64,000 bases of DNA, from NCBI GenBank assembly GCA_029834535.1, contig JAQMWT010000342.1, positions 47,064 to 111,063 on the forward strand, written 5' to 3'. The notes under the pieces were generated by a model. It had not been told where the DNA came from and ran no database searches. It worked only from the letters and a program-made list of their open reading frames with translations. This stretch comes from Chrysophaeum taylorii (Eukaryota; Sar; Pelagophyceae; Pelagomonadales; Pelagomonadaceae). The position numbers were made by a program, and so were the translations under genes. Below are positions 879-60,987 of this stretch, piece after piece (positions within the stretch are counted from its first letter, which is position 1; every line of letters starts with the position of its first letter).

Positions 879-3800
879 ATGGTACTCAGGAGGAACTACA
901 TTTGTAGAGCAGCCGTCCGTCCTCAACGGTCCTTTGTGTTTAAACGGACCTCAGCGAGTTTTTTACGGACGATGAAGCGCGCACATGAAAAAAAAAGGCG
1001 CCGTAACGACGATCGAAAGAACAGGCACGTCGACGAACCATCACCTCGCGGTCGACGGATGGCCGACCCTCTGCGCTGCGATGATGCCCGTCCTCGACGA
1101 GGATGGGACGGGCGGCCGCCGTCAGCACTCAGGAAGCGACGCGCGGACTCGCCATCACCCTCCTACGAGCGCCACCAAAAAGGGCCAAAGCCGTCGTCGT
1201 CGTGGCTTCACGAAGCTGCTGGTCGAAGTCGAGACGACCGGCGGCGCGATCCAAATCGAGACCGTTCGCCGATTCGACGACGAATCCCCGACCACGCGGC
1301 AAACAACCAGCGGAGCCGCGAGGACAACGACGGTCGAGGCTTGCCGCACCGTTCTCGGTCTCCAAAGCGAAGACGACCTGGCACGCACGACCACTGGCGG
1401 CGCGACGGTGGTCAGAGAGACTGGCGCCGTTCTCAGCGGCCGGCGCGACGACGAGGGGGTGAGACTCACCGCGCTGGGCATTGCCTCTACTCCGAAGGTC
1501 GCGGCGCCGACACTCCCTCGAGCCACGCGCTAACCAGCAGCGCCGAGGCACCACGATGGCAACAAATAAAGTGGGGGAAGCAGATGACGGACCGCGGTGC
1601 GACTCCCGAAACGATTCTCTCACTCGTTGCGGCTCGTGGCGACGAATTCAGCGCTCGCAACTTGGCGACTGCCGCACACCGTGTTGCCAAGTTTGGAGGC
1701 CGAAACCGCGATGTGCAGCGCGATCCCCGTGTGATGGACCTCGCGAACGCTTGTCGACGCTGCATAAGATTATTCGATCCTCGGGGGCTTGCCAACACAG
1801 CATGGGCCTTCGCGACGGCGCGCCTTCAGGTACCCGAGCTCTTCGCGGCGATCGCCGGCGCGGCTTCATCGCGGCTTGGCGAGTTCAATCCCCAGGAGCT
1901 CGCCAACACCGCGTGGGCCTTCGCGACGGCGCGCATCGAGGCACCTGAGCTCTTCACGGCGATCGCCGGCGTGGCTTCATCGCGGCTTGGCGAGTTCAAG
2001 CCGCAGGAGCTCGCCAACACCGCGTGGGCCTTCGCGACGGCGCGCATCGAGGCACCCGAGCTCTTCGCGGCGACCGCCGGCGCGGCTTCATCGCGGCTGG
2101 GTGAGTTCAAGCCGCAGAACTTCGCCAACACGGCGTGGGCCTTCGCGACGGCGCGCATCGAGGCACCCGAACTCTTCGCGGCGATCTCCGGCGCGGCTTC
2201 ATCGCGGCTTGGCGAGTTCAATCCCCAGGAGCTCGCCAACACGGCGTGGGCCTTCGCGACGGCGCGCATCGAGGCACCTGAGCTCTTCGCGGCGATCCCC
2301 GGCGCGGCTTCGTCTCGGCTTGGCGAGTTCAACCCGCAGGACCTCGCCAATACGGTGTGGGCCTTCGCGACGGCGCGCATCGAGGCACCTGAGCTCTTCG
2401 CGGCGATCGCCGGCGCGGCTTCATCGCGGTTTGGCAAGTTCAATCCCCAGAACCTCGCCAGCACGGCGTGGGCCTTCGCGACGGCGCGCATCGAGGCACC
2501 TGAGCTCTTCGCGGCGATCGCCGGCACGGCTTCATCTCGGCTTGGCGAGTTCAACCCGCAGGACCTCGCCAATACGGCGTGGGCCTTCGCGACGGCGCGC
2601 ATCGAGGCACCCGAGCTCTTCGCGGCGATCGCCGGCGCGGCTTCATCGCGGCTGGGTGAGTTCAATTCGCAGAACATCGCCAACACGGCGTGGGCCTTCG
2701 CGACGGCGCGCATCGAGGCACCCGAGCTCTTCGCGGCGATCGCCGGCGCGGCTTCATCGCGGCTTGGCGAGTTTAATCCTCAGGACCTCGTCAACACGGC
2801 GTGGGCCTTCGCGACGGCGCGCATCGACGCACCCGAGCTCTTCGCGGCGATCGCCGGCGCGGCTTCGTCTCGTCCTGGCGAGTTCAACCCTCAGGGGCTA
2901 TCCAACACGGCGTGGGCCTTCGCGACGGCGCGCATCGAGGCACCTGAGCTCTTCGCGGCGATCGCCGGCGCGGCGTCATCGCGGCTGGGTGAGTTCAACC
3001 CGCAGGACCTCGCCAATACGGTGTGGGCCTTCGCGACGGCGCGCATCGAGGCACCTGAGCTCTTCGCGGCGATCTCCGGCGCGGCTTCATCGCGGCTTGG
3101 CGAGTTCAATCCCCAGGAGCTCGCCAACACGGCGTGGGCCTTCGCGACCGCGCGCATCGAGGCACCTGAGCTCTTCGCGGCGATCGCCGGCACGGCTTCA
3201 TCTCGGCTTGGCGAGTTCAACCCGCAGGACCTCGCCAATACGGCGTGGGCCTTCGCGACGGCGCGCATCGAGGCACCCGAGCTCTTCGCGGCGATCGCCG
3301 GCGCGGCTTCATCGCGGCTGGGTGAGTTCAATTCGCAGAACATCGCCAACACGGCGTGGGCCTTCGCGACGGCGCGCATCGAGGCACCCGAGCTCTTCGC
3401 GGCGATCGCCGGCGCGGCTTCATCGCGGCTTGGCGAGTTTAATCCTCAGGACCTCGTCAACACGGCGTGGGCCTTCGCGACGGCGCGCATCGACGCACCC
3501 GAGCTCTTCGCGGCGATCGCCGGCGCGGCTTCGTCTCGTCCTGGCGAGTTCAACCCTCAGGGGCTATCCAACACGGCGTGGGCCTTCGCGACGGCGCGCA
3601 TCGAGGCACCTGAGCTCTTCGCGGCGATCGCCGGCGCGGCGTCATCGCGGCTGGGTGAGTTCAACCCGCAGGACCTCGCCAATACGGTGTGGGCCTTCGC
3701 GACGGCGCGCATCGAGGCACCTGAGCTCTTCGCGGCGATCTCCGGCGCGGCTTCATCGCGGCTTGGCGAGTTCAATCCCCAGGAGCTCGCCAACACGGCG

Positions 3801-6008: not shown

Positions 6009-6107
6009 TAATTGATTCCTTCCAAAGATTCGTTGTCATCACCTTCCCTTCCGCGTTTGTTCATTCTCCCGGCTTCTCGAGCCTAAATGATGGTTGCAAT
6101 AATTACC

Positions 6108-8838
6108 AACGTTGGGAATTCACTTCAGCAAGTGAACGTGAACCACTTCACCAGCCACGCAATATTGGTGAAGTGATTTGAAGTGAACACGTCACCCTAC
6201 GTGGCCATCGTGAACCTTTGTGAAGTGAACGCCACTTTTTTTTTTTTTTAACGCCAGCGCCGGTCCCTGCCGCGCCCCGTCAGTCCCGTGCCCCCCGCGC
6301 GCTATTGCCTAGGTCTGGTGCTCTTAGATTCATTCGCGTTTCGGGACGAAGGAGGAGTTGGTGGATGGGGTTCGGTGTTTCTTACTTTAGGCGATGTGAG
6401 CGACCTCGGATCGTCGTCTGGTTCTTCCTCATCAACCTCCATCTCCAAAGAGTCTCGGGGATGGTGCTCTCGGCGTTTTTGAACTCGGTCTCGTGTCCGA
6501 GGTCCCTGTACTTAATCCGGGCCGCCGCAATGAAGAAATTCGTGTTCATGCGCAGTAGGGCAACTTTGTCCGTCTCGTCCGCGCTGAGCAACGTGTTTCC
6601 CTCAGTCAGGACAAGATTTCCAATGCTCAGGCAGCGCTCACAGTAGCTCTGCGCGCCATGTGTACCAATTGAAAAAAACCCTTAGAGGAGGCTCTCGCCA
6701 TGTCCGGAAGGAAGGAACCCATACTGCTCCTTGGTGAGCGGTCGATACAGCTTTCCAACGTCGAGCACAGCCAGATCTGTGAAGCCGACTTCATCCTTCT
6801 TCTCAAGTTCAGGATAATGCTCTTTCCAGTTGAGCGATCTCGACAGCCTGATGATCCATTGAGTGAAGACCTGTTCAAACTCCACATTGAAATCTGGTTC
6901 TCAGGCATAGCAAAAGAAGGCACGTCGCCACTAATGTCGTCGTCCCAAGCATCGTCGGGTGCGTCGAGTGCCGCCAAGAGACTGCGGGCAGGCACAGGCT
7001 CGGAGGGCGGCGCAGGCTCGGAGGAAGTCTTTGCCTTTTCGTGGTGGAGTGCAGTCCGTGCGTAAATCACATATTCTTCCTTGAGCAACTTCCTGGCCCG
7101 AGCTCTCTGATTGGACGACAGGTGCCGGCAGTTGATAGTCCGAAAGTCAAGAAGGAAGGCAATCAGCTCGCGATCGTTGAATTCGTAGTCGAAGTGACGC
7201 ACGTAGTTTTCATTATTCCCGCAAAACCGACGCTCACATTCGAGAATAGCCCGCTCAAGACAGATTTTGCCGGTCTCGCTGAGGTCGTCAACATCGACAG
7301 TCTTACGTGGCATGGATTTCAAAGTTATGTTCGGGCGAACAATGACTTCTAGCGTCCCAGCTCGCAGAGACTCGATCATGTTGTGCTTGATCAATGCGGC
7401 GCGCGCCCCCAGGTATAAGTGTTCATGTTGCACGAAAACAACGGCCGCATCCGTTATAGCAAAAATCGCCTCGAATTCAGCCAACACCACCCATTGCTCA
7501 TCACTGATTGTCCAGGGGAGTCCAATGTTGGTAGCCGTGTACAGTTTGAGCACGCGGTGCATACGCAGCAAGGAACGAATAAGTTGGTATCGCGCCCGGA
7601 ACCTCGTCTTATTGAGGTCGAGCTTGAGCTTCGGCGATTTATTTCCCCGGCTGTAATGGCAAAAGCGCATGCAGATCCTTCAAAAGTGTGCCACCGTAAG
7701 AAAAGTACTTGGCTCCATCGTGGGCACTGTTCTGCAGCTCCTGGCCAGCTGGGAATGGATTGTTCACCTGCTTGCCTCTGGATCGTGTCAAGTCGCCACA
7801 TGCCGCTGCCGAGATCTTTGAGATATCATGCATGTCACACACGCTTGGACGTCAACAAAAAATTCTTCGGCGACGCCAATTGCAGCCCGGCCTCGTGAAC
7901 AATGGTTGCGGCCGCGAAATCGATATCGATTCTCGCACGCTCCGCGACCACAGAACGGAGCAGAGAAGCCGTGCCGGAATCGGTTCCGTCGTCAGCTGGA
8001 ACGAGGCCCACGCGGGAACACCGCCTCAACGCCACTCCAATCGGGCCAGATGAAGGATAGGCCAATGGCCTGTCGCTTGAACTTATCCTTCCTTGAGTGT
8101 CCCGCCGTCATGCAGTACCTGGGCGAATGGAGTGCCGAAAGCCGCCGCTTCATAAATAACACTCCGTAACGACGTGCTTCAAGATTCGAACAACAAAACA
8201 ATGATATTCAGCGTCCACCCATTCGAACAGCGCCTTTCGAGTCATGAACGAGGGCGCTTGCCTTTTCCGCCGCCACCGCCGCGGTAATACTACGCCTCAA
8301 TTATTTGGTTGCGATGATCTTCGTCGTCAGTCAAAGGTGCGCTTGGAAAAAATCCGCTGCGACGTGTACGCGTAGTGCCGAGCCGAGAACGCCATCATCA
8401 GGGAAGAGTGCTTTGCCTGGCTGGGCATGGCCATGAAGTATCTCGTAATATCCGATTTACCCATCGAGGCTGCTGCCACAACGCCCACGGCCGTCATAAA
8501 AAACGCCCTCCTTTTCTTGGTCTGTCTTCTGTTTCTTGGTGAGCTGTCAACACGTCCCAGCTCGTCGAATCCTCCTCCTCCGGATGCGCAGCCTTGAAGT
8601 GGGCCGGCCCCAAGGGGGCTTGGTCGTCTGTCTGCCACGTGCCTTTCTTGAAGTCTCTCGTCACCACCTTCAGGCGCTCCCAGCACCGGATACACACATG
8701 CGTCGTCGCCTTCCCACTGGTCAGTCAACGCGGTGGCTGGTCAGGATGATTTTCCTTCAGTCGACGCACGCAGTCCCACCACCACATTTTGGGACGAAAA
8801 TTTTCGGTGAAGTGAAGTGAAGCGAATTCCCAACGCTG
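6108..8838 (-). mobile_element. hAT-superfamily DNA transposon with TIRs and 8-bp TSD
   Basis: Terminal inverted repeats begin CARCGTTGGGAATTC followed by (A/G)CTTC at both ends (6108 onward and the complement of 8838 backward). The element is flanked by a perfect 8-bp direct repeat ATAATTAC (6100-6107 and 8839-8846), the duplication length expected for hAT. It is 2731 bp long. Inside, on the minus strand, lie a BED-like zinc finger, a central transposase region and the hAT dimerisation motif, in broken frames. The nearly intact TIRs and TSD imply a fairly recent insertion of a defective copy. Confidence 0.88.
6385..8728 (-). pseudogene. hAT transposase, frame-broken
   Basis: Order on the minus strand: a BED-type finger near 8700-8590 (CIRC followed by HFKAAH), a middle part near 7840-7640, a 347-residue ORF (7670-6627) with typical hAT helical sequence, and the C-terminal dimerisation region at about 6645-6530 containing CERCLSIGNLVLTEGN and LLRMN, the equivalent of the SERxFS...L..N signature. 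These pieces lie in at least three frames, so no single protein can be made without correction. hAT transposases cut and paste DNA with a DDE/RNase H fold in the nucleus. The ORF at 8728 may hold the original start. Frame breaks could be mutations or assembly indels. Confidence 0.8.
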
Positions 8839-10492: not shown

Positions 10493-10903
10493 TGGAGAGA
10501 TTTGACCCTCTCCGGGTACTACATGGTAGAGACTGCGTGCAGTCTTAGGCGTGTACAGACCATTCCGCTTGTCACATGCTACTACGCAAGGTAGGGATTT
10601 AAGCCCTAACTCCTTAAGGACATTAGGTCCCATAGAAGCGTTTACACTGACAACGAGGAACGAAGCCTCTGTTAATTAAACAGAACACCCCGTACCTGAC
10701 GGTACGCACCTGGAGGGAGGCCTACTCCATGTTGGAAGAGAGCTTCAGACTGGGTTCTTCATAGTCGTGAAAAGTATAATTGCGGAAGGGGTAAGGAAGG
10801 AAGGGAGGAACGAGAGAAAGCCGTATTACGGAGAGAAAACCCTCGTGTAGAGATAGGTGTGAAATGTTCCAGTGTCGCACACATAATAGTGTAGTTCTCT
10901 GGA
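10493..10903 (-). repeat. 3' LTR of copia A
   Basis: 411 bp, about 98.5% identical by eye to the copy at 23813-24223. It begins TGGAGAGATTTGACC on the plus strand and ends GTAG(T/C)TCTCTGGA. The ends are not the usual TG...CA in both directions. It is followed inward by the polypurine tract. Confidence 0.93.
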
Positions 10904-10912
10904 CCCCCTCAA
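10904..10912 (-). promoter_or_regulatory. Polypurine tract of copia A
   Basis: On the minus strand TTGAGGGGG lies directly against the 3' LTR, the position of the plus-strand primer in LTR retrotransposons. The same tract abuts the LTR of copia C at 62810-62818. Confidence 0.75.
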
Positions 10913-11022
10913 CGTGTGAAAACGGTTTATGCATTTCAGACGTTCTTGAAGCGGAACTTAAATGCAATGTACATGAGAACAGTGAACAGTGGAACAAACA
11001 ACAACAGAACAGGACAAATTAA

Positions 11023-13456
11023 TTATGACGTCGAGCGTGTTGTGATGTTGCGCAAAGAAGCAGTATCGGTATCCACAACATCAGATGTGTGGTCCAATTC
11101 ATCCTCGCTATTATCGTCCAGTTCCTTTAACTCTGGAGAAGACGAATTATGATCATCGGAGGATAGATCGTTAGCAGTGTTGGTATTGTGCGTAGTCATT
11201 GCATCACTCAAGGTGACCAAGGGTGACATAACAGACGAAAGGAAAGACATAGCAGCATCTGGTGTAAGAGCGTGTAGATCCAATGCAGGAATAACACGAT
11301 CATGTGCATCAGACATAGCTGTGTGGAGGTCATGAGCTGCTGCGTCGATTAGAACTCGCTGTGCTTCATTATACGTATCTGGAGGGAGCTGTCCAATAGA
11401 CGAGATAAGCGACCGAGAAATGATATGGACAAATACAGCAGAGGTCGGGATTATATGGTGTTCTGATGCATTTGAACTAACTAACTAACTAACTTCAGAC
11501 CTCTCCCGAGCATGGGAGCCAGGCCGGACCGACAGGAGCCAGTCCGGAATCACGGGCCTGTAGACGAGGAGCGCCGAAAGGTCGGTCGGCGGAGAGTGAC
11601 CATCAAGCTTGTCACCATGCGACGAGGAGACCGCGATGTGACTGACAACCAACTCGTCGATAACCTTCCGTCTTCGCCCCCCGGCCATACCCCGTCCCAC
11701 TGCGAACGTTCCCGCTGCCAACCGGCCCGCCCGGGAGGCGAATAGGTGCCAAGCTACGCCGGGAGGGCGGATGCCCTCGCAAGGCTCAGGATTCATGAGG
11801 CACCGTCCTCCATCGCAACCGCAGTCGGCGATCAGGGTAAGGGTAATATTTTGAAGACTTGACAAAATGTTATCTAACAAAGAAACATGTTTAATGTTTC
11901 TCGGTCACTTGAGTATTAAGGGTTTCGTAGGTTTCTTGTATCTGTGTGAGAGAAGTTAGAGCAAGCGATAGTTGGTGTTCTCGTGCCATCAATTGCTGTT
12001 CGGTGTTAGTGAGACGTAAGGATAAAGACCGAGTCTGTTCTTTTAATTGGTGTAAGGATTCAGCCATATTGTCGTTAGCTTTATCTGGCGTGGGCTCAGC
12101 GGGTGGATTATCGATCGGCGCTGGTGACACATCTTCAGAAGGGGTATTATTATTAAAGGTATCAATGATATGGGATGGGTAGCCAACTTGGATTAACACG
12201 TTTTTAAATGCTAGTTGTTGATTAGGTGGAAGTTGGCAAAAGCAGTTTAGCATTGGCGGTACCGTCTCGGAAGAATTTGCGTCAAGTTGATGAGAAACAT
12301 CGTTAACAAGGCGTTCGATGAGCACGTTAAGTAACTCCTCAGGATTGGTAACTACGCAGGTTTTATCTTCCACAGATTGTAACAAAGACCAAGCTGCTAC
12401 AAGAATCTCAAGATTTACACTCGAAATGAAGGGCAGCTGCAATAAGAGCATGGTGTTAGCGTCAGGGTTGACGAGAATTTTAGAAGCATCAACGTTGCGG
12501 GATGTTGCAGTCTGCATGATGGCCTCTTTGAGCAGCTTGTTAATAGCAATGGACTTTCCAAGACGGAGGATTATGGCCCTTATGTGGGCAGCTGGATCAT
12601 TATAACAAGAGAGTTGGAAGGGCTGCTGATTATTGCGAATTAACGCTATCCCATGATTCGACAAGTTACACATCACACAAATCAACAAAAAGAAAGGGCG
12701 CGGTACATCGAAGCAGTGCGATGCATGTTGCTCAGACGCGAGATGATCCTCAATAATTTGGCGAATCCTGTCAGTTTTAAGCTCATCTTCAGTACAGATG
12801 ATGAGCACGAGGGGTGTGCCCGGCATCTCAGTTTTGTTATAGCACTTTGTACACGCCACATGTACTTTGACAACCCCTTTAATGGGTGGAAAGCGGTGAA
12901 AGCGAATACCTTCATTAGGAGATATAGCGGGGGCATTCCGAATGCGCTTTGCTTTGACGCACAGCAATGAACTAAGATATTGGATGTCGCACACAAAGTC
13001 TGTCTGTTGTGCTTCGGTAAGCAGCTGCTGCACAGACTTAAGCCAACACTGAGGATTCTTACGCTGAGGGATGAGAAAGTTCGGCGGGGATGCACCAAGG
13101 GCGGATGTGTTCCCTGACATCATCGCAAGTGCGTCAAATTTGCAATGTTTAGGCAGGAAATACTCAGACTTTGATGGTTGCGATTTAGACGGTTGTTGGA
13201 CAGTTGCCTTGGGTGCCTTTGGCGTAATGGGCGTAGATTGATGTCCTTGAGCCACCGACAAATAGGTTTGATGCTTCCGATTAGGGGAACTAGTCGGTGC
13301 AACGCTTGGAGTTAGAGCATTAAAAGGTGGGGATAGTGACGGTGCACCACCACGACCACGGTTCAGGGTAGAATGGCGCCGGCTCGCAGCATCTTTGTTT
13401 TTAGTGGGATTCATCGTAAAAAGAATATCCACATCACATCTTCCATTGCATTTCAC
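11023..13456 (-). CDS. Extra 3' ORF of copia A (unknown function), split by a SINE
   Basis: Lies between RNase H and the 3' LTR, where most copia elements have no gene. The first part (13456-11891, 521 residues) starts with a basic Pro/Ser/Thr-rich region, then a Cys/His cluster (CTKCYN ... HLASEQH ... CVMC) that could bind metal, then an acidic Pro-rich linker and a heptad-rich segment likely to form a coiled coil. The reading continues after the SINE at 11477-11841 into 11464-11023, with an acidic Ser-rich tail ending NITTRSTS. The uninterrupted homologous C-terminal half in copia C (63945-63100) confirms that both pieces belong to one protein. No family is recognised; a second nucleic-acid-binding or structural protein is one guess. 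It has no obvious signal peptide or membrane span, so I do not call it an envelope. Confidence 0.75.
11477..11841 (-). mobile_element. SINE-like element, full-length copy 1
   Basis: About 365 bp, nearly identical (around four differences) to the copy at 15826-16185. On its own strand it starts CTTACCCTGATCGCCGACTG and ends GGTCTGAAG(TTAG)n. It interrupts the copia 3' ORF: copia C has the uninterrupted sequence. The target duplication is imperfect (tgatgcatttgaa against taatattttgaa). No tRNA-type A or B box is evident to me. An ORF of about 103 residues runs through both full copies. Confidence 0.85.
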
Positions 13457-13530
13457 ATTTTAGCGAGCCAGTATTCCTTTGCATAGCAGGGTTAGTTTAA
13501 AGTCATTTCGGACATAATGAAGGGTAAGGA

Positions 13531-15822
13531 TTAACTATCTTGTTGAGCTATGGGTTGTTGTAAGCCGAGTAACGTGCGAAATCTGCTGAAGAGCGGAGCT
13601 CCAAAGGGTTTAGTAAATCCATCGGCGATATTTTGGGTACCGGAAACATGATGTAGACGTATACGTTTTAACCGTACGTAGTCGCGAATACGGAACCAGC
13701 GTGTGCTGATAGCTTTAGCCTTAGTCGCACTGTCGGGATTGTTGGAAAGATGAATAGCAGAGGCCGAATCTCCAAGTATGGGACTGTTACGTATGAACGA
13801 CATGTCCGATGGGAGGGGATTGTCGTGAGCATCATAGTCTAGTAGCAAGTCTTTCCCTGAAGGTTGGCGGAGATAGAAGTGAGGATTTATAGCGAATGCC
13901 ATTTCTGTTAACAATTTGCGTAACCAGACCACATCATCGGCACACATATAAAGGGCGATAAGTTCACTCTCATGCGTAGAAGTAGCTGCAATAGGCTGCA
14001 ACTTAGACTTCCAAGTGATGAGAGAACCAAACAAAAAGATAGCGTAACCGGTTGTAGATTTGCGGTCTTGTTCATAAGAGGGTGCATTATCGGCATCGAC
14101 GAACGCGACCAGTGGATCAAAATTACCTGAATTAACTTGTTCTTTAGTGTAATCCGACATGGTGGCCATGTCAGTACGATTACCGATAAGAAGCCGAAGA
14201 TGGTCCATTAGAGCGGAAGAACCAGAGTAGTACCAGAGGCGAAGATTACGATTTTCGGGCTTGCGCAAGTAGCGGAGCGTTCCTGTTAGTACTTGAACAT
14301 GTAGAAATGCTGGATTATGCATTCCTCGAGAGCAACGACTAAGACTTTGTGATAGATCGGGGCGACGGGCCAATTGGACAAACGTGAGCTTGCCGAGTAG
14401 AGTAGAGAAGGTATGAAGGATGAACTTGTCCATATCAGAAGATGGCTCTCCAGTTTTATACGTGGTTGATGGTGACATCGGTGTGGAAGTGGGACGTAAC
14501 TGCATTAAAATGGGGTACTCTTCGAACAATGCATCAAGTTTAGCCTGACAGTCCAGTGATATAGAACCATCAGTTGTACGCGTTATGCGCATGCCTAGGA
14601 GAGTATGGACTTCCTCGAAGGTGTCGCCTGAGTATTCCTTTTTTAGAGCTTGCTGGAACTCACGACGTAGAGTTTCCGAAGTGCAAGTAATGACGACGTC
14701 GTCTACTGAGAGCGTGCAAATTTGAAATGTAGCGTCAGCTTGGACTTTAGCGTAAATGCATGTGTCTGTTCGAAATCGTGTATAGCCTAATGAATCAAAG
14801 AAGGCGTTTATGGTTTGATTCCAAAGGGCAGGGCTCTGACGTAATCCATAGAGAGATTTAAGTAGCTTTGGGAGACGACGGCCTTGGTATTTAGTATCTT
14901 GGGGATCGAGAAGGTAAATGCCTTGTGGCTGTTTGACATAGGACCAGGCGTGCTTTATGTTTAATGTACTGACCAGCAGCGTTGGTTTTTATACGTAGGA
15001 CGAGACGGGTGTCAATAGGCTTCGAGTTGACCATTGGCAGCGCTAGTTTAAAGCAACCAAACTTAACAATATCAAAAATCTCTTTGGAGATGGCAGCGAT
15101 GTAAGCTTCGCGATCAGCGTCTGAAAGACCATTGAGGCAGTTCAACTCATATTCATCAATTTTGATATCTTTGGCTAGAATCTTGTATTCGTCGGGACCA
15201 ACAGTGCTTGGTTCATGAGTCGTCGTCAGATGAGTAATCGCGTAAGAAGCGACATTATCGTGCAGATGAGCGTGATCGGGATCTTCGACGAGTTGAACAA
15301 CTAGTAGAGGAGCATCACCAAGGTGGGCCTCAATGTAATGCGATTGCACGGTGATATAGTCTTCGATAGCGGAGAGATGAGGCTCGGAGGCACCATAAGA
15401 AGCGTCATTATGACCCAAAGTGGAGTGGGGCGTGAACAAAGCATAAACATATTGAGCGGGAGGAACTTGAAAGGCGTGAGCATGTTCAGAAATTAAATGA
15501 ACGAGAGCTTGAGGAAGGTGAAAGTCTGTAAGGTTGACGTCGTCGCAGAAGTGATGAACGTGAGGAGCGTCAGGCGATGGGTGGCTATGGCTCCTATGAC
15601 ACATAACTGAAGAGGACTGTGAAATCGCTTGGTGCACTTGGTGATGAAGTGATGGTGTAAATTTCCCCTCTGGAGGTATAGCCGTCCAGTGGATGCCATG
15701 AGCAAGATGAAGGGAGTGGAGGGTGGGGTCGCAGAAAGTGATGTACTGCTTGGAGAGGTCATACTTGAAGTCGGCAAGCGTACCACCGGCTTGTTTATAA
15801 GCGGCAACAGTAGGCGAGGCAA
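13531..15822 (-). pseudogene. Copia A reverse transcriptase / RNase H
   Basis: N-terminal RT part lies at 15822-14960 and includes the typical lead-in to KARLVL. The sequence then jumps to YVKQPQGIYLLD, LYGLRQSPALWN and the catalytic box SVDD (LSVDDVVI, equivalent to YVDD) at about 14950-14600. RNase H follows at 14592-13531 with DADNAP, KSTTGY, THESELIAL, LGDSASAI and HVSGTQNIADGFTKP, all standard copia signatures. Between KARLVL and YVKQPQG the region that normally holds the first catalytic aspartate (about 60 residues) is absent, and the frame changes there, so this RT should be inactive. RT copies the RNA genome into DNA inside the particle; RNase H removes the RNA strand. Confidence 0.9.
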
Positions 15823-15825
15823 GAC

Positions 15826-16185
15826 TAACTAACTAACTTCAGACCTCTCCCGAGCATGGGAGCCAGGCCGGACCGACAGGAGCCAGTCCGGAATCACGGG
15901 CCTGTAGACGAGGAGCGCCGAAAGGTCGGTCGGCGGAGAGTGACCATCAAGCTTGTCGCCATGCGACGAGGAGACCGCGATGTGACTGACAACCAACTCG
16001 TCGATAACCTTCCGTCTTCGCCCCCCGGCCATACCCCGTCCCACTGCGAACGTTCCGGCTGCCAACCGGCCCGCCCGGGAGGCGAATAGGTGCCAACCTA
16101 CGCCGGGAGGGCGGATGCCCTCGCAAGGCTCAGGATTCATGAGGCACCGTCCTCCATCGCAACCACAGTCGGCGATCAGGGTAAG
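15826..16185 (-). mobile_element. SINE-like element, full-length copy 2, with 13-bp TSD
   Basis: 360 bp inserted in the copia region between integrase and RT. It is flanked by a perfect 13-bp duplication GGCGAGGCAAGAC (15813-15825 and 16186-16198). On its own strand it ends in (TTAG)3, the tail typical of elements mobilised by target-primed reverse transcription. It is nearly identical to copy 1, so both insertions are young. Confidence 0.92.
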
Positions 16186-16198
16186 GGCGAGGCAAGAC

Positions 16199-16543
16199 GA
16201 GTAAGAACATCCTTGAGATTGGTTTTGCGACGAGGTTGAGGGTGATGAGGACCACGGGCGAGACGTAGGACATCCTGGGAATAGAGAGACCGATAAGATA
16301 GTAAAAGTGGCAAAGTGCTGGAAGACACTTCAGATGTAGGTGTGGTGGCGGAAGGAGCGGGTGCAGAAGGAGCTGGAGCACAGGCGGGAGCGGGAGAAGG
16401 AGCATGGAGATGAGAAGAAGGAGTCCCCCTCTCATGGTCAGTATCGGTAGGCATAGCATTCCCCCTCTGCGCCGCATCATTGGGGGTGCTGTGAACAGAG
16501 AAGGGAATGTCGGGTGAAGGTGCGGGAGGAGGATGCTGTTCAT
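16199..16543 (-). CDS. Copia A linker between integrase and RT, with PxDAxQRG motif
   Basis: Pro/Ser/Ala-rich spacer translated in the frame that reads TPNDAAQRGN (about 16490-16458) followed by long PAPSAPAPS-type sequence and then NLKDVLTRLAS, where the SINE interrupts. After the SINE the same theme continues into the RT N-terminus. The PNDAAQRG peptide recurs at the Gag/protease junction and at the equivalent site of copia B, so it may be a processing site. Such low-complexity spacers are common between integrase and RT of copia elements. Confidence 0.6.
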
Positions 16544-16599
16544 AATCAGGAGGAGATTTAGAAATAAGATGAGGAAAAGTCAGTATAGAGGAAACACGG

Positions 16600-17371
16600 A
16601 CTTGACCGTTTTCAAGGGTTTATAACGTTAGCACCACATAAGTAGATGTAGGGACGACATCGGGGTTCATATTTATGAAATTCGTTAGGTTCCAAATGCA
16701 GATAACAAACAGAACCAAAAGGTTTGAGGTAGTCCTGTTGGGGAACATTACATTGATCTAACAAAACGGGAACATTACATTGATCTAACAAAACTTGTTG
16801 GGGGCTTAGGACTTTATTGTAAATACGTTCGAGGGAAACGTAAGGGAGGCCCACGGGTAGTGTGGTGCCGGATCTGTTAGGGGGTGACCTTTAGAGGACA
16901 CATTAAGCATATGCCGGAGTCGTGTAGACGCGGCAGTGGCTATGTGACCAACAGCGGCATCTACTTCATGATTAAAGACATGTAAGTAAGGGGGGAACGC
17001 GGACATGTTAATACCATGTTCCACTCGAAAGGGGGTTGTAACATGCTGAGATAAATAGGGTTTAAAGGAATCACAATAGATTTGTTTTAGTTGTACATGA
17101 ACATAAGTAGAGCAAAAATTGCGGACAAACTCAAGGGCGTTACAAAATTCTGGAGTTAGTGCTACGACAAAAGTACACTAACAGAAATGAGACACTTGAA
17201 AACAATGATATGTCGAAAGGATCCCCAGGCTTCACAAGGTTGAAATTTTTTTTTCGAATGATGGTAGCTTGACAAGGTGGTGTGGATGAGGAAAGCGTTT
17301 TTTATGAATCGTACAATCCACACAGAACTTACGGTAGGGTACGTCAGATGGGTGGTGTCCAGGACTGGCAA
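16600..17371 (-). pseudogene. Copia A integrase core, degenerate
   Basis: Recognisable in pieces: a start FQPCEAWGSF, a middle IYCDSFKPYL that may hold the second catalytic aspartate, FPPYLHVFNHEVDAAVGHI at the position of the third catalytic residue, and the C-terminal copia signature LKPFGSVCYLHLEP then KYEPRCRPYIYL. The residue where copia integrases carry Glu is Asp here (HEVD); copia B has Glu at that site (HEVE). A stop near 17162 and frame changes break the gene. A 23-base direct duplication (gaacattacattgatctaacaaa) occurs near 16743-16795. Confidence 0.75.
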
Positions 17372-18671
17372 TAACCTGAACAGCTTTTATAGCTTGAGAA
17401 TCACTAGAATGGTGGATGTTGTGAAAATTGGTAGCTCGTTGTTGCGCATCTCGAAATGCAAGGGTGCCCCTGGCATGAACTTTCTTATCGAAGGGTGCAT
17501 GCTTCTCATGGAGCTGTCTTGGCGTTATAAGAGGAATTTGTTTTTCTTTAGTAGGAGATGATATATCTGCGGATGAGGTGTTAGAGAGGAAGACACGAGC
17601 TACTGAATCGAGATGAAAAGATGGAAGTTCGTGGTTAGAAAGTTCGTGGTTAGAAGCAAGATTATCACAACATGAGAGTTTTTTATTGGAGATGTAGAAC
17701 ATTGTAATGGAACTCTGGTGTAATAATAAGGATGTATCTGTTGGGAATATATTTGTGAAGAAGGTTGACCTATAGTTTTTGGTTAGAGAGGCATGATCAG
17801 GGTCAAACGATGGTGATAGCGTTAATTTACGCAAGTCATAGACAAGCTGACACAAATGTTTATAAATTATATGATATGTTCCAGCTGGAATAGCATTAGC
17901 GATTATATCACAGCATAGGTCCGGGGACAAAGACAAAAGAAAATTGATTTGGTACGCTGTGAAGTTATTGGCGCGTGCCAATTCGCGAGTTGAGTAGTGT
18001 CGAATGCGATCGAGTCGTGGATCGTACACCAGCATATTAGCAAATCCACGAATGGTAGGAGTGGGAGTGTATATAGAGTGAACTTTGGCACCCATCTTCC
18101 TATCGCTTGATGTTATAAAGCCCAAATATCTGCTTTGGGACAAATGCATGTCACTTAAAGCAAATATTTTGTCGATAAATTCGAGACGATTTTCCTGAGG
18201 GTAGAAGACAAAAGAATCGTGAAATACAGGAGAGGTATAGGAAACCAGTGCTTCTACTAGACGACGCGTGTCTTGATTTTCATTATTATGATGGTATGCT
18301 TGGCAAAGCCAAAGAAAATCGGTAACTGGTTCGAGAGAAGCAGTCTCATCGATTCCGGCATCATGTGTTAGGAAGGTGTAGGTTTCGCAAAAAGCATTTA
18401 TATGTGCCTGGTATTTAGAAGAGGAGTTAGAAACTGTTATGTCTCCGCCTGTATGTCTTCCACCAGTGATGTAAATGATGGATGAAGTAGAGGATTTATT
18501 TAAGAATAACCTGTGAGATGGTTGGTTAGATTCGATAGTTGTAATACGAAAGGACACAGGTAAAGTGATGGATTTGGGGAATAATCGTCCCATAATATTA
18601 TAGAGGAGCACAAAGGCTTTGAGTTCAATAGGGGATCTCATGCAAGCAAGTTTTTTTCTTGAATTAGTCAA
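17232..18671 (-). CDS. Copia A: C-terminal half of C5 DNA methyltransferase plus integrase zinc-binding domain
   Basis: 479-residue ORF in a different frame from the upstream half, overlapping it by 4 nt. Residues 1-200 correspond to the target-recognition region. Residues about 203-234 carry motif IX: TPTIRGF, then RHYSTRELAR, matching the R..T.RE.AR..F block of C5 methyltransferases. Residues 259-262 read NAIP, motif X (usually GNAVP), followed by a helix. Residues about 415-453 hold the copia integrase zinc-binding domain: H417, H421, C450 and C453 (FCVDC). So the methyltransferase lies directly upstream of integrase in what should be one polyprotein. The start codon given by the ORF is probably not a true start; the frame change near 18670 is either a mutation, an assembly indel or a frameshift site. 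Confidence 0.85.
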   Translation of the reverse strand: MTNSRKKLACMRSPIELKAFVLLYNIMGRLFPKSITLPVSFRITTIESNQPSHRLFLNKSSTSSIIYITGGRHTGGDITVSNSSSKYQAHINAFCETYTFLTHDAGIDETASLEPVTDFLWLCQAYHHNNENQDTRRLVEALVSYTSPVFHDSFVFYPQENRLEFIDKIFALSDMHLSQSRYLGFITSSDRKMGAKVHSIYTPTPTIRGFANMLVYDPRLDRIRHYSTRELARANNFTAYQINFLLSLSPDLCCDIIANAIPAGTYHIIYKHLCQLVYDLRKLTLSPSFDPDHASLTKNYRSTFFTNIFPTDTSLLLHQSSITMFYISNKKLSCCDNLASNHELSNHELPSFHLDSVARVFLSNTSSADISSPTKEKQIPLITPRQLHEKHAPFDKKVHARGTLAFRDAQQRATNFHNIHHSSDSQAIKAVQVIASPGHHPSDVPYRKFCVDCTIHKKRFPHPHHLVKLPSFEKKISTL

Positions 18672-19555
18672 GAATCCCAGGCGAAAGTTAGAAATGCATC
18701 TTGACTGGGATGTTCGACTGTTTTATTAGAGTGCAGACGAAGGAACAGCATAGTTAAGGTTTCAAGCTCAGTCACAGTTAAGCGCACGGATCCTGTACGA
18801 CTGAAAATATTGTAGGTTTTAGGTGTGGACGCAAATGGTATGTCAGGAAAGACCTGCGTCCAAGGTTCGTCGACTATTAACTTGCGACTGATGGAATTAG
18901 CGTGGTCTGCAATGTCCAGAAAGGAAGTGACTCGTTTATTAGACCATGAAAGTAGATCAAGAGGGCCGGTGTTACATTTACGTGCAACGAGGATCCATCT
19001 TTCTCTGGCTTGATAATCTCCACATAGATAGCATGGAAATCGGTCACATATGTCCACCGTATAGTGCATCGTTGAGAAGATGAGGTTAGCAACTCGTATA
19101 TGATCTTCATACGATACGGAGTGTGGTGGTGTCATTTCCATGAAAAGAACAAGCGGCTTTAAAAGCTCAAGTACACTTAGAGCACTTGGAAACAAGGAAT
19201 CATCCATATCGCGCTCGAAGGTGGAAATGGATCTCCCATTGATTATGTTGCAATTTTTGCATGGTGATGTCAATTCCACTATGTCAGTGTAATATCGTGC
19301 ACGTTCAACGTCCAATGCTCGATGGAGATATGTCAAAAACTTAGGTAGGGATGGGAAAACTTCGATGGAATTACCAAAACGTCTTCGTAGCATGTGCGTG
19401 ATATCGTCGTCGCTCTCAACAAGAACTTTAACGTTGATGTTGATTTGCAAGTCATTAGAAGCGCAAGCTAAGAATGCAGGAGTGGACATCCCAGAGCAAA
19501 GCAGAGTTACAGTAGGTGTTCGTGGGCTAGGAGATGAAGTTACTGTATGAAGCAA
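18668..19555 (-). CDS. Copia A: N-terminal half of C5-cytosine DNA methyltransferase
   Basis: 295 residues. Motif I (S-adenosylmethionine binding) is TVTLLCSGMSTPAF at residues 15-28; an acidic motif II residue is E47 in LVESDD. Motif IV is TSPCKNCNIINGR with the catalytic Cys at C99. Motif VI is FMEMT (E140), where ENV is usual. Motif VIII is YQARERW (Q182, R184, R186), the QxRxR block. Spacings match C5 methyltransferases. The enzyme transfers methyl from S-adenosylmethionine to cytosine C5 in DNA. It sits between protease and integrase of a copia element, in the same orientation, and its C-terminal half follows in the next frame. The Asn of ENV is lost, so activity is uncertain; the catalytic Cys and the QxRxR arginines are present. 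The coding frame may extend upstream of this Met. Confidence 0.87.
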   Translation of the reverse strand: MLHTVTSSPSPRTPTVTLLCSGMSTPAFLACASNDLQININVKVLVESDDDITHMLRRRFGNSIEVFPSLPKFLTYLHRALDVERARYYTDIVELTSPCKNCNIINGRSISTFERDMDDSLFPSALSVLELLKPLVLFMEMTPPHSVSYEDHIRVANLIFSTMHYTVDICDRFPCYLCGDYQARERWILVARKCNTGPLDLLSWSNKRVTSFLDIADHANSISRKLIVDEPWTQVFPDIPFASTPKTYNIFSRTGSVRLTVTELETLTMLFLRLHSNKTVEHPSQDAFLTFAWDS

Positions 19556-19693
19556 ACGTGTGGTAACCTTGCGTCATACGGGAGGTGGGAAATGCTTGCG
19601 TATGTAAGGCAGCTGCGAATGCATTGACTCCAAGATGGTTTTAAGCCATGGGACGTAAATTACTCGTTCCATGAGGGTGGAATATAGTTTAAG

Positions 19694-20722
19694 CACAAGT
19701 GCAGGCCAGTAAGTTCACCTACTCCCAATCTCTAACCCCAGTAAGTTCACCTGGTCCCAGTAAGTTCACCTAGTCCCAATCTCTAACCCCAGTAAATTCG
19801 GCGTAAGCCCACTCGTGCTCACACCCACTCGCCCCACTCTCCTTCGAGCTCGTCGCTCTCACCCCCGCCAATCTAAGCTGCTTTGATCCGCAGACGCCGC
19901 CAGCCTTTGAGTTTACTCTAAAAGCCCCAGTAAGTTCACACTTGGTCTCAGTAAGTTCACCTGGTCACTAAGTTCACCTAGTCCCAATCTCTAACCCCAG
20001 TAAGTTCACCTGGTCCCAGTAAGTTAACCTATAGTGCGCGTGTAGACGCTGGGAGGGGGTTTATCAGTATTGCGCAGCACGTGTGGAGTAGGGTGGAGTC
20101 GTCGACCAAGAAGAGGATATCCTCGGGGTTGCCGATCGACAGAGAGCCACGTAGAGCTGGACGTGGCAGAAGACGGGCTTCGCCAAGAGGATGCCGACCT
20201 CGCGGGGCGTCTGGCCCTGGCTCTTGGTGATCGTTTGGCGTCGGCGGGCCTTAAGGGATACAGGCTGGAGGAGCCTCGGTGACAACGACACGATCGATCA
20301 TGTATCTGGTACCGTTGCAGTGGCCGTGCGACGGGTCGAGGTTGCGAAGACTTTGAGCTCGCGATCAAAGTCAGCATGCCGTTGGTTGTCAGGGAGTTCA
20401 AAACTCGACTCTTGAGAGCGAGGCGTCGTCTTCCGACCCAACCTAGTCGGCCGAAAAGAACTCCGACGCCTCGTCTCCGGGAAAAAAAGGCCGAGGTCAT
20501 GCGCACGTTGTCAGCATCGACAACATCGTTTCGACGGGGCGAGAGAATGGCGCGCTGAAAGAGCCGCCGCGGGTCGTGGAAATAGTCTGCGAGGTCGCCG
20601 TAGACGGCTTGGGAGGATCACTGTCTGGCTCTCGCGCCTACCTGATCCTTACTCTCGCTCCTACCTGATCCTTACCCTAAATCGAGGGACAGACAAACAA
20701 ACAAACATCTGTCGATTAGTAG
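19694..20722 (-). mobile_element. PIF1-helicase-derived Helitron-like repeat, copy i
   Basis: About 1 kb inserted between copia gag/protease and the methyltransferase. On the minus strand it starts CTACTAATCGACAGATG and ends GGCCTGCACTTGTG, flanked by TTAAG on both sides (19689-19693, 20723-20727). The interior (20640-20040) is a degenerate C-terminal piece of a PIF1-type helicase: RAILTPRRNDV, EFLNSL, CNGTRYM, TITKSQGQT and PVFCHVQLYVALCRS in shifting frames. The 3' third is a minisatellite of AGTAAGTTCACCTGGTCCC-like units. Confidence 0.8.
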
Positions 20723-20734
20723 TTAAGATTTCGC

Positions 20735-23338
20735 GTTGTTCGTTAAAAGCACATAGTCTGAACTGTAGTGAGCGAAGTTCCATTTTACGCGCTTTTGCTT
20801 GTTGTAGCGAATAAATTGGTAGAGTTGGCAACAGGTTACTGAGTCTAAACAAAGTAATCATGACATTATCATCGATTTTACTCTGGATAGATGATTGTCC
20901 TTTAAATTCAACTCCATAAAGATGTATACCAAGTTTATCTTCTCCCCATTGTGTCATACTAATGATGCGCAGATCGGGATCGTTATGGTCGTTTTGCTTG
21001 GGTAGGAAAAGCGCAACGTCTAGCTTTACATATCCCACATTTGGATGCTTTGGGAGAGCGGGAATGACCGTCCTTATAATCATAGCATGTGTGATATTCT
21101 GCGTATCCGTAGCAGTCTGGATAGCAGGTGATAAGGACTCGGGTAGCTTTACGATGTGGATAGGATCAGCATAACGTTTAAAGTTAATTACATGTTGAGA
21201 CGCACATATGTCAGCATATCCTGGCGTAGTCATTAGCGGCAAATTGTACTCGTTGTACAGTTTAAGCATTGTTGCATAACAGGCATGTGTTGAGCTTTGA
21301 CCAAACACGTACTGTGTCATGAAACTTTGCGTTTGTTCGGAAGGCACAACGACGAGTGCAAAACCAGTGTTTAATTTTGGTAGCAACACAGGGGGATCTG
21401 TACCATCTTCATTGGTTAAATTACTGGGGAGCTCTGAGTGCGAAGAAGTTTCCCGAGCTTGACGACGAACAATAGCATTCTGAGCTTTAGCATTTATGTG
21501 CTGCAGTAGCGGCTGAGGGATGTTATCGATTTCATCATTTTTAATTGACAGGAAAGTGTGGAACATTTTCTCTGTATCAGCAGTCCCCCTCTGCTCCGCA
21601 TCACTGGGGGATGCTTCCGGGGCAGATGTTTCAGTTTGATACTTTTCTTCTGAAACACGAGATTCCTTATCGGCTTCTAAGAGGTTCACAATGGTATTGG
21701 ACATAGTATCAACTCGAGATAAGTAGAGATGAACTTGGGTGGCTTCATCAGGATCTAAGGACTGTGTCGAAGCTTGAGAAGCGGTTGTCCAGAGGGTACT
21801 CAATAAGCTTTTCATTTCCTCCTGTACCATTTTAGAGTCGGTGGAAGGATTGGGATTCGCTTCCTGCAATTTACCAAACAGGTGGCGAAGACGATCAACT
21901 TGATAAGTAGCCCGGTCCATAAGAGACATATTAGAGCGTGCATTACGGTTAGAGGAAGATGAGTAGACAGGACGATCGAAGCTGGTACCTTTGACGTTAT
22001 AATTTGAAGGTGAACGATAGTACGACGTGTCACGGGGTGAGATTGTCGATGCTTTATCTTTTGCATTACGAAGCTTACGAGCGTTGAAGCCAGACTGTCC
22101 AGCTACAGTAGCTAACAACGAGTAAGCGTTGTTTAGAGAATCGTGGGATTGATGAATAGTATCCATCAATAATACCTTAGGTGGCTTGGTAGCGGTAGTA
22201 CCAGGGATGTAAGGGATCCAGGAAGCGGGTTTATCCAAGCGTCGGTTAGAGGAAAACTTTGTTTCATTGTATATCTTTAACAAGAACTCCAATAACGGAC
22301 GAACGTCGTTAGGATCAACTAGCTTTAACAATTCGGGATCGTGACTCGAGTTGTTCCCAGAGCGTGTCTCGTAGAGTTTACACCATTCCAATAACGATTG
22401 AGAATAGCGCTCGTGATCCGAGGGATTAGCATATAGACGGTAGATCTCCTCGTGAGCTTTAAGAGTGATTATGGAGTTATTAAATTGGATTGATGCTCCA
22501 TCATTATTTAATTGCTTTGCCTGAGATTGAAAGGCAGGCAGTTGTTCGACAAATACATGGGCATACAAATTTACATTTAGAGACATTCGATTAAACTGAG
22601 ATTTAATCTCCGTTACATCTGTACAAGACACTGTCTCATAGTAATGATAGGCTAAAAGCATTACAGCAGGTAATTTATTGGGATGTGCAGGGATTGCATA
22701 AATTTTCTTTAGTTGAGGCCACATAGCGAGAGCGAGCTTTTCCTGGGACTCGAGGTTAAAGAATATGTACGAAAAACCAGCATAAGTTTCGCAGTGTTCG
22801 AACCAATCGGCATTAGAGAGACCTGTAAAGGACATGTTAGTTAAAGATGAATCATACACAATTGATTTAGGGAATCGGGTATCTAATAAACTGAGGACAC
22901 GTTTGACATCCTTATTTAATTCATGACGGACGAGGTTGTACGACTCTTGGTAGTAAAGTCGTTTAAGGTTGTTACGGGCATCAACCGTTAGTTGATGGGA
23001 AGAGTTGACGTGACAAGTCTTTAAATATTCGGGCATGGCATCTTCATCAGGTAAGTTTAAATCATTAATTTGTTCAGCTTTCCATTGAGCGAAGATAATA
23101 TCAACTTCTTGTTCAAGAATTGATTATATTCCGGAGCATTCCTGGTGTAAGCTTCATATGAATCAAAGCAGAATAACGCGTCCACATATGGACTTGTCAT
23201 ATGCCTGCGAAGCGTTTCGATTTGTAAGCTCACCTTAGTTGAATTATCTTGGAAACGTAATCCTGCGTTAATCTTATCAACGAGGATTTGTTCTTGTTTG
23301 TAGATATCAGTGGTAGATATTGTTTTTTGTTTTGACAT
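20735..23338 (-). pseudogene. Copia A gag and protease
   Basis: Starts at the ATG at 23338 (MSKQKTISTTDIYKQ). A frame change near 23110 splits it from a 791-residue ORF (23036-20661) that continues the protein. The N-terminal part is alpha-helical capsid-like sequence; no CCHC zinc knuckle is visible. SPSDAEQRG lies about 21620-21580. Near 21216-21180 the sequence YADICASQHVIN matches the copia aspartic protease active site (DSGAS.H), with Ile-Cys replacing Ser-Gly. The last residues of the ORF come from the inserted Helitron-like repeat, so the natural end is lost. Gag forms the particle and protease matures the polyprotein. Confidence 0.8.
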
Positions 23339-23797
23339 GATTGTGACCTATTAAGAGATAGGTTATAGGATTGATAGACATATTCGACACATAAGAGTGA
23401 GGGGTTTCTCGAGTGCGGGTAATATGTACAGTACACTATTTTAAGCGTGGGCTTATTTACAAGACCAAACAAATCAACATGCTATTTAAAAACAGGATGA
23501 CTTGAGACTGAAGAATCGAGCAGTCAGTCTTTTGTTGGGGAATAGAAGGAAAAACCCGTACAAGTTTCCGCGGCTTGTATAGGGAAAATTTTAATTTTAT
23601 TAGCTATGCGAGTGCATATGACCAGTGACCGACCCAACTCGGTCACAAACCAAATTAACTGGTGGGCATATACCGTCACATAACAAATATGTACAGTAGA
23701 CCACCGCCAAACACATTGTCGCATTGTACTCGTGATCAGGCGCAAATTGATCACTCCATTTATACGTACAACGCAGTTGGGCTGACACACCTACGCA

Positions 23798-23812
23798 CCT
23801 GGGCCCATAACC
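23798..23812 (-). promoter_or_regulatory. Primer-binding site matching the anticodon arm of initiator tRNA-Met
   Basis: The plus strand reads CCTGGGCCCATAACC directly against the 5' LTR. Fourteen of these bases are the anticodon stem-loop of eukaryotic initiator tRNA-Met (CTGGGCCCATAACC). The minus-strand RNA would therefore pair with the anticodon arm and not the 3' CCA end, as in Drosophila copia, which uses a tRNA half as primer. A slightly altered version (with three extra bases) is beside the LTR at 25511. Confidence 0.8.
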
Positions 23813-24223
23813 TGGAGAGATTTGACCCTCTCCGGGTACTACATGGTAGAGACTGCGTGCAGTCTTAGGCGTGTACAGACCATTCCGCTTGTCACATGCC
23901 ACTACACAAGGTAGGGATTTAAGCCCTAACTCCTTAAGGACATTAGGTCCCATAGAAGCCTTCACACTGACAACGAGGAACGAAGCCTCTGTTAATTAAA
24001 CAGAACACCCCGTACCTGACGGTACGCACCTGGAGGGAGGCCTACTCCATGTTGGAAGAGAGCTTCAGACTGGGTTCTTCATAGTCGTGAAAAGTATAAT
24101 TGCGGAAGGGGTAAGGAAGGAAGGGAGGAACGAGAGAAAGCCGTATTACGGAGAGAAAACCCTCGTGTAGAGATATGTGTGAAATGTTCCAGTGTCGCAC
24201 ACATAATAGTGTAGCTCTCTGGA
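23813..24223 (-). repeat. 5' LTR of copia A
   Basis: 411 bp, matching 10493-10903. At its outer end the last 13 bases, gtagctctctgga, are duplicated (24224-24236) before the flanking DNA begins. Confidence 0.93.
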
Positions 24224-25831: not shown

Positions 25832-26603
25832 GAGGGGGGGGGTGTGTTTGGGGGGCATTTTGTCCCCGATTCAGGGTAAGGATCAGGTAGGCGCACGAGC
25901 CGACATTGATCCTCCTCCAAGGCGTCTACGGCGACCTCGCAGACTGTTTCCACGACCCGCGGCGGCTCTTTTTAGCCAGCGCGCCATTCTCACGCCCCGT
26001 CGAAACGATGTTGTCGATGCTGACAACGCGCGCATGAATGACCGCGGCCTTTTTTTCCCGGAGACGAGGCGTCGGAGTTCTTTTCGGCCGACTAGGTTGG
26101 GTCTTTTGGAAGACGATGGCTCGCTCTTTCCAGTCGTCGAGTTTTCGACTCCCCGACAACCAACGGCATGCTGACTTTGATCGCGAGCTTAAAAAAGTCT
26201 TCGCAACCTCGACCCGTCGCACGGCCACTGCAACGGTACCAGATACGTGATCGATCGCGTCGTTGTCACCGAGGCTCCTCCAACCTGGATCCCTTAAGGC
26301 CCGCCGACGCCAAACGATCACGAAGATCCAGGGCCAGACGCCCCGCGAGGTCGGCGCCCTCTTGCCCACAAGCCCGTCTTCTGCCACGTCCAGCTCTCCG
26401 TGGCTCTCTGTCGAGTAGGCAACCCCGAGGATATCCTCTTCTTGGTCGACGACTCCACCCTACTCCACACGTGCTGCGCAATACCGATAAGCCCCCCTCC
26501 CGGCGTCTACACGCGCACTAGAGGTGAACTTACTGGGACCAGACCTGAACTACTTACTGGGGTTAGAGATTGTGACTAGGTGAACTTACTGGCCTGCACT
26601 TGT
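25832..26603 (+). mobile_element. PIF1-helicase-derived Helitron-like repeat, copy ii
   Basis: Plus-strand copy that cuts the LTR at 25832. It has a G-rich 5' tract, then gggtaaggatcaggtagg, the helicase remnant (about 25900-26450, with RAILTPRRNDV and TNGMLTLIASL) and a 3' end GGCCTGCACTTGTAG. The 5' terminal CTACTAATCG block seen in copies i, iv and vi is absent. Confidence 0.78.
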
Positions 26604-60982: not shown

Positions 60983-60987
60983 CTTTA

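Follow-up and report, generated by a model that had tools for sequence, protein, structure and literature searches.

Evidence for a diverged C5-methyltransferase-like domain at the start of Pol in a copia retrotransposon family

The element and its layout

The window, i.e. the whole stretch of 64,000 nucleotides analysed here, holds a Ty1/copia element that spans ~10493-24223 on the minus strand and is bounded by LTRs 98.5% alike. Its features are as follows, in the order in which the element is read.

23813-24223, minus strand: 5' LTR, with 98.5% identity to 10493-10903 across 411 bases
23799-23812, minus strand: PBS-like sequence GGTTATGGGCCCAG, directly inside the 5' LTR
20664-23123, minus strand: gag/protease ORF of 820 aa, its protease assigned by eye
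19689-20655, unstranded: probable repeat insertion breaking the gag/protease frame, judged from its other copies in the window
19574-19576, minus strand: TGA separating gag/protease from Pol, its 13-base context shared across loci of the family
18698-19573, minus strand: putative catalytic part of the methyltransferase, with motifs I-VIII and ~90 residues past VIII
18695-18698, minus strand: frame change in the window copy, where the loci L035 and L036 have a single frame
18096-18695, minus strand: insert of ~200 aa between motifs VIII and IX, at the position of a target recognition domain
17850-18095, minus strand: part with motifs IX and X (STRELAR and NAIPAG), its low end approximate
17313-17426, minus strand: integrase zinc-finger-like H..H..C..C (FHNIHH ... 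FCVDC)
16185-17312, minus strand: integrase (INT) region and the sequence after it, in the frame of 17235-18722, which stop codons interrupt in the window copy
15824-16187, unstranded: 364-base repeat inserted between INT and reverse transcriptase (RT), with a second copy at 11480-11843
14939-15832, minus strand: segment preceding and entering RT, with 81% identity to the Pol of L036
13534-14940, minus strand: RT and copia-type RNase H, assigned by motifs and by a match to the RNase H of a sister family
11480-11843, unstranded: second copy of the 364-base repeat
10493-10903, minus strand: 3' LTR, with a G-rich polypurine-like tract before it

The 5' LTR may reach 24236 through a tandem duplication of 13 bases. 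The flanks, CTTCG on the side of the 5' LTR and CCTCG at the other end, differ by one mismatch in a comparison by eye and form a possible imperfect 5-bp target-site duplication. The PBS-like sequence resembles what we take to be the complement of the anticodon arm of initiator tRNA-Met; of the seven genomic sites that match it two were inspected, and ARAGORN predicted a tRNA at neither. The gag/protease ORF has a protease-like ADICASQHV at 21189-21215, again assigned by eye, and in Pfam at E<=1 it matches SKA1 alone (E=0.39), which we consider to be due to chance. The RT motif LSVDDVV lies at 14692-14712 and the RNase H motif AFVDAD at 14089-14106, and the RNase H of the sister family matches the window copy at 13558-14394. 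The domain order INT, RT, RNase H is the copia order, both in the window copy and in L036, whose frame ends early in RT.

The window copy, which we read as it stands with its frames unrepaired, is a dead, recent insertion. It is broken since the methyltransferase motifs are split over two ORFs of different frames, at 18671-19573 (301 aa) and 17235-18722 (496 aa), and its defects are the frame change near 18695, stops in and after INT, the two 364-base repeats and the repeat at 19689-20655. The insertion of the 364-base repeat at 11480-11843 is supported by a related copy at the end of the window, which aligns on either side of 11477-11851 and lacks the repeat. The near-identical LTRs suggest that the window copy is young. 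An incomplete related copia piece was also observed in the window at ~37386-39468, with no methyltransferase match.

Methyltransferase motifs and their conservation

The earlier note had read six C5-methyltransferase motifs in order in a copia element, with EMT at the position of motif VI. We located all of them in that order on the minus strand, as listed below.

19490-19513, minus strand: motif I, TVTLLCSG
19247-19267, minus strand: motif IV, SPCKNCN
19121-19141, minus strand: motif VI position, MEMTPPH
18998-19021, minus strand: motif VIII, GDYQARER
17973-17999, minus strand: motif IX, HYSTRELAR
17880-17906, minus strand: motif X, IIANAIPAG

Their placement after gag/protease and before the integrase zinc finger, inside matching LTRs (98.5%, 411 bases), was likewise borne out. 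The window copy has many relatives in its own genome (70.8 Mb, 697 contigs), with at least 131 matches to the 301-aa ORF (131 of 1051 candidates scored) and at least 88 to the 496-aa ORF (86 of 1370 candidates scored). The assembly possibly has duplicate contigs, as C25 and C521 give the same match at the same coordinates. Two full loci of the family, L035 (1184 aa) and L036 (1464 aa), hold the methyltransferase, the insert, motifs IX-X, the zinc finger and INT in one open frame. The Pol of L036 matches rve (E=0.011), SH3_retrovirus (E=9.1e-5) and RVT_2 (E=0.0069) in Pfam, all short of the cut-off.

The key residues are retained among copies of ~76% identity. We entered 39 loci in the residue counts, two of them lacking the I-VIII stretch. 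The motif I Gly, motif II Glu, catalytic Cys and QxRxR are each present in 37/37 alignable loci, and the motif IV Pro in 36/37. At motif VI the window family has EMT where ENV is the rule, with the Glu in 35/37 loci (the exceptions being one stop and one Gly). Motif IX keeps its Arg in 34 of 35 loci and its Glu in 33 of 35, and the Asn and Pro of motif X are found in 33/33.

The Pol frame starts past a TGA that continues the gag/protease frame in register. The 13-base string around this TGA is present in 23 of the 25 distinct loci with upstream sequence, L024 and L034 being those without it. The TGA is in frame with Pol in 21 loci; in L010 the gag frame is shifted upstream of the TGA, and in L027 the TGA is out of frame with Pol.

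A sister copia family with a recognizable methyltransferase

A PF00145 search of the genome gave at least 57 matches, all above the cut-off (123 of 474 candidates scored). Among the loci inspected, L001 and L002 are host-type genes, and L003-L008, L037 and L038 belong to a sister copia family (family B), which has at least 82 genome matches, some being fragments of one copy (73 of 789 candidates scored). In L037, gag (900-2633) and Pol (2597-8452) overlap in different frames, and the Pol frame of 1952 aa holds a protease-like DGGA (by eye), the methyltransferase, the zinc finger, INT and RT. Its Pfam matches are PF00145 (E=1.1e-7) and RVT_2 (E=1.6e-38), both above the cut-off, and rve (E=0.0061), which is under it. 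The sole NCBIfam match of this Pol, to RNase J (E=0.068), is at chance level.

Several comparisons place the domain of family B among the cytosine methyltransferases. The TIGR00675 dcm model matches L003 (E=4.9e-11) and L007 (E=2.8e-8), under the strict cut-off of the model. The best PDB matches of the family alignment are nine sequences, all cytosine methyltransferases (E 0.017-0.46), and L037 matches a phage methyltransferase with E=6e-6, the same virus appearing in two records. Against a C5-methyltransferase profile the I-VIII part gives P=5.3e-12 and the IX-X part P=0.049 in hhalign. Pairwise z is mostly 3.1 to 14 versus phage enzymes and 1.3 to 2.5 versus L001/L002. Motif VI is ENV in this family, with Glu and Asn each in 10/13 loci; the catalytic Cys is kept in 12/13 and the Pro in 11/13.

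Homology of the domain in the window family

On the METHYLTRANSFERASE question, single sequences of the window family fall short of the Pfam cut-off. The ORF 18671-19573 has no Pfam match at E<=10 and neither window ORF has one at E<=1; PF00145 is touched by two of nine aligned family members (best E=0.012), with no other Pfam family at E<=10. No NCBIfam model matched the window ORF or the L036 Pol. The family profile gave five matches in the PDB at E<=10, with no methyltransferase among them. A match of the p53 core domain to the insert region (residues 287-349, E=0.59) was judged to be chance. The ~200-aa insert had no match in the reference methyltransferases, and for the 301-aa window ORF alone AlphaFold gave an unusable model, with a mean pLDDT of 35.8.

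The comparison of profiles gave a signal beyond chance. The I-VIII profile of the window family matches a reference profile, built from 11 phage C5-methyltransferases and the host genes L001 and L002, with P=2.3e-5, probability 76 and score 42.4 in hhalign, over 199 columns with the motifs in register. The same score under 100 column shuffles is 14.7+-2.8 with a maximum of 24.8, and P is 0.23-0.47 when the linker, zinc finger or INT from these proteins is set against the reference profile. The IX-X part gives P=0.0043 with probability 8, a value taken without a shuffle null. Pairwise z versus the 13 single references is mixed, about -1 to 7. The earlier note had proposed a search against a C5-methyltransferase profile as a check; the family profile matches such a profile (P=2.3e-5), and the window ORFs match no Pfam model.

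The two families are related to each other through their Pol. A single pair gives blastp E=3e-22, collinear from before IX/X past INT and calculated without composition correction. Their z values are 3.4-5 for I-VIII, 5.8 for IX-X, 1.4-2.3 for the zinc-finger segment and 22-27 for INT, with none for the insert. Direct hhalign links the INT regions (P=6.4e-10) and found no match for I-VIII (score 14.9, null 13.2+-2.1), the insert or IX-X (P=0.34); an early profile comparison of both families across ~600 columns also gave no match. A single capture before the family split is plausible, and not more than that because direct hhalign links INT but not I-VIII, the insert or IX-X. Protein searches with both families, part of them limited to proteins whose length is 0.55-1.75 times that of Pol, gave no relatives at E<=0.001, and no relatives were found in viral contigs scanned with family B and the host enzyme L001.

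Selection and CpG signal

We calculated dN/dS between open-frame copies, and the window-family methyltransferase is under purifying selection. For pairs with dS>0.3 the median dN/dS is 0.056 in I-VIII (240 pairs, the segment running ~90 residues past VIII), 0.137 in the insert (214 pairs), 0.088 in IX-X (75 pairs), 0.117 in the segment after IX-X (60 pairs) and 0.016 in INT (4 pairs), where many dS are near saturation (up to ~3) and the pairs are non-independent. The set has 33 rows, three of which repeat a locus (L029=L009; L032 and L035=L020), and it is tilted to younger copies because a locus was kept only if its open frame at motif I had 250 aa or more. In the sister family (10 rows, including L053 with a shifted stretch) the values are 0.173 for I-VIII (41 pairs), 0.135 for the insert (16 pairs) and 0.147 for IX-X (2 pairs), I-VIII being not below the insert here.

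The CpG observed/expected ratio is 0.89-1.02 in four element loci versus 1.26-1.50 in three host-gene loci, two of which adjoin and all of which have higher G+C. In the window family C-T differences amount to 0.083 at CG versus 0.048-0.064 at other C (246 non-independent pairs). Family B is unlike it in this respect, with 0.150 at CT above 0.106 at CG (21 pairs). The CpG pattern fits CG methylation of the elements by the host or by the element. The depletion is mild, and host methylation alone could produce the same.

The host genome

One gene of the genome codes for a chlorophyll-binding protein (PF00504); its best matches among solved structures are the VCPI, PCPI, FCP and acpPCI antenna proteins of red-lineage plastids. 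The genome also encodes a plastid RuBisCO large subunit, presumably of the red type. Both point to a host that is probably an ochrophyte-like alga. The host gene L002 extends into L070, where SNF2 and helicase domains are found, i.e. PF00145 and SNF2 are combined. DNMT5 is described as a methyltransferase with SNF2/helicase domains in the excerpts of PMC12344493 and PMC10538959 used here, and by its domain make-up L002/L070 is a putative DNMT5-like gene.

Proposed role of the methyltransferase

Our data support the view that the region is a diverged C5-methyltransferase-like domain integral to copia Pol, because the profile score beats the shuffle null, dN/dS is low and the sister family passes Pfam with the same order. 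The claim of the earlier note that the copia element encodes a C5-methyltransferase finds its support in these three lines. Our computations show the architecture, the homology in statistical terms through profiles, purifying selection on the domain and the retention of its catalytic residues.

We lean towards the interpretation that this copia Pol opens with a C5-methyltransferase, is made by UGA readthrough, and that the enzyme methylates the element cDNA or the DNA of the new site. The enzymatic activity, its substrate, the readthrough and any advantage for the element are what we infer here. Pol would run from the methyltransferase (I-VIII, the ~200-aa insert, IX-X) through the zinc finger, integrase and reverse transcriptase to RNase H, and would be made via readthrough of the conserved UGA behind gag/protease. 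As Pol would arise in this way, the methyltransferase would be packaged together with reverse transcriptase and integrase. It may act on cytosines of the double-stranded element cDNA, or on DNA at the new site, so that the new copy would pass to host methylation upkeep, the DNMT5-like gene being present. Methylation maintained by the host may conceal the copy from defences against unmethylated DNA, or curb its damage.

A fuller history is possible but doubtful, in which an algal copia lineage acquired a bacterial- or phage-type C5-methyltransferase before the known families split, placed it as the first Pol domain after a stop that is read through and preserved its activity, with new copies arriving self-methylated.

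We find it unlikely that the domain, a methyltransferase by descent, is now a part of Pol that binds DNA or RNA without catalysis and serves, for instance, target choice, cDNA handling or RNA packaging. The replacement of ENV by EMT and the large distance of the window family from the reference enzymes would suit such a loss, but the Cys and QxRxR are kept in 37/37 loci and the Glu in 35/37, and dN/dS of I-VIII is below that of the insert in the window family. We would give somewhat less credit to an enzyme that methylates RNA, i.e. the element RNA or the tRNA primer, instead of DNA. Its place in Pol beside cDNA-handling enzymes and the mild CpG depletion in the elements speak for DNA, while C5-methyltransferase folds include tRNA methyltransferases (DNMT2, in the excerpt of PMC12344493) and an RNA role was proposed for LINE-borne enzymes (in that of PMC5890265). 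It is improbable that the enzyme works mainly on host DNA, either the chromatin at chosen target sites or other elements: the three host-gene loci examined are not CpG-depleted, though the copy number is high, host-wide effects are discussed in the same excerpt of PMC5890265, and the present data do not tell such action from self-methylation. Motif likeness by chance in an unrelated Pol spacer, to which the window copy without a Pfam match and the family without a PDB methyltransferase match might point, is hardly credible and already disfavoured, as the profile score lies far outside 100 shuffles and the sister family has a clear methyltransferase at the same place.

Returning to the favoured interpretation of an active DNA methyltransferase in Pol, cytosine methylation is a main brake on transposons, and the element may itself write the mark that hosts use for its silencing. 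Since the carried methyltransferase stays under purifying selection, our data suggest that the element can profit from methylation. A 71-Mb genome with two diverged families offers material for testing the role of the enzyme in retrotransposition.

Comparison with known systems

Among stramenopile algae, the copia-like CoDi elements of diatoms are controlled by methylation from the host DNMT5 (PMC9998398); a methyltransferase domain is not mentioned for them in the excerpt used here, unlike the copia families of this genome. We found no mention of stramenopile retrotransposons bearing a methyltransferase in the excerpts of PMC9998398 and PMC10538959, and among the matches listed by our literature searches, with most subscription journals outside them, there was no report of a stramenopile copia element with a methyltransferase.

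The precedents that the earlier note named from dinoflagellates and charophytes are real and, in the excerpts of PMC5890265 used here, concern LINE, DIRS and Gypsy elements. DNMTs are carried under purifying selection by LINE and DIRS elements of Symbiodinium and Gypsy elements of Klebsormidium, and retrotransposon DNMTs are capable of de novo CG methylation (PMC5890265). SymbioDIRS-Dnmt3 and SymbioLINE-Dnmt resemble our case in that hundreds of element-borne C5-methyltransferases are found in an alga, whereas they use DIRS or LINE machinery and the element here is LTR/copia with an rve-type integrase. KnitGypsy-Dnmt3 of Klebsormidium nitens is similar in having the methyltransferase within the Pol frame of an LTR element with its catalytic residues kept, at Ka/Ks < 0.2; it differs by its Gypsy domain set and its DNMT3 clade, where we have the copia order and an unplaced, diverged methyltransferase. 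A 2025 study (PMC12344493), which credits the 2018 paper, names LTR Copia and DIRS elements, in streptophytes and dinoflagellates, as bearers of DNMT3, Copia being a carrier there as well. Its hosts differ from ours, which is apparently an ochrophyte, and family B is dcm-like.

With what appears to be a third lineage, and with another retrotransposon class, methyltransferase capture would be a recurrent event. As far as our searches show, what is new in comparison with these systems is a host that seems to be a red-plastid alga, the position of the domain in copia Pol, the two diverged families and the conserved UGA before the domain.

Expression of Pol

In the window family, i.e. the genomic relatives of the element under study, Pol may be expressed through readthrough of a stop codon, as the sequence of the junction suggests: gag/protease and Pol lie in one frame and are separated by a TGA followed by C, both in the window (19574-19576) and at window-family loci. 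The sister family, the second copia family with a methyltransferase in Pol, has overlapping frames at this junction, unlike the same-frame TGA of the window family.

Repeats and other copia sequences in the window

Two repeats were found inserted in the element. The first is 364 bases long, and the second, of up to ~1 kb, has several copies in both orientations across the window, one of them sitting in the gag/protease of the element. The window also carries pieces of other copia elements.

11480-11843: 364-base repeat, copy 1, within the element, same orientation as copy 2
15824-16187: 364-base repeat, copy 2, within the element, same orientation as copy 1
62885-63050: 364-base repeat, partial copy near the window end, reverse orientation
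19689-20655, 25873-26588, 37883-38805, 54764-55346 and 60015-60985: copies of the ~1-kb repeat
62407-64000: a related element, represented by its LTR and the sequence next to it, reaching the window end, ~81-90% identical to the element under study
37386-39468: a different copia family, present as truncated pieces, with integrase (INT) pieces ~55-57% identical to those of the element and a repeat inserted within

An ORF at 35045-36220 resembles ankyrin repeats, as judged by eye.

Genome assembly and host genes

The contig pairs C25/C521 and C10/C297 of the same genome (G000) gave equal-scoring matches whose coordinates on the two contigs are identical or almost so, which suggests that they are duplicate contigs in the assembly.

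Host-type methyltransferases are also encoded in this genome. Locus L001 carries a stand-alone C5-methyltransferase gene (1498-2577, 360 aa, PF00145 E=4.1e-19) adjoining a gene for a chlorophyll-binding protein, and loci L002 and L070 (contig C621) carry a host gene combining C5-methyltransferase and SNF2 domains, which is DNMT5-like.
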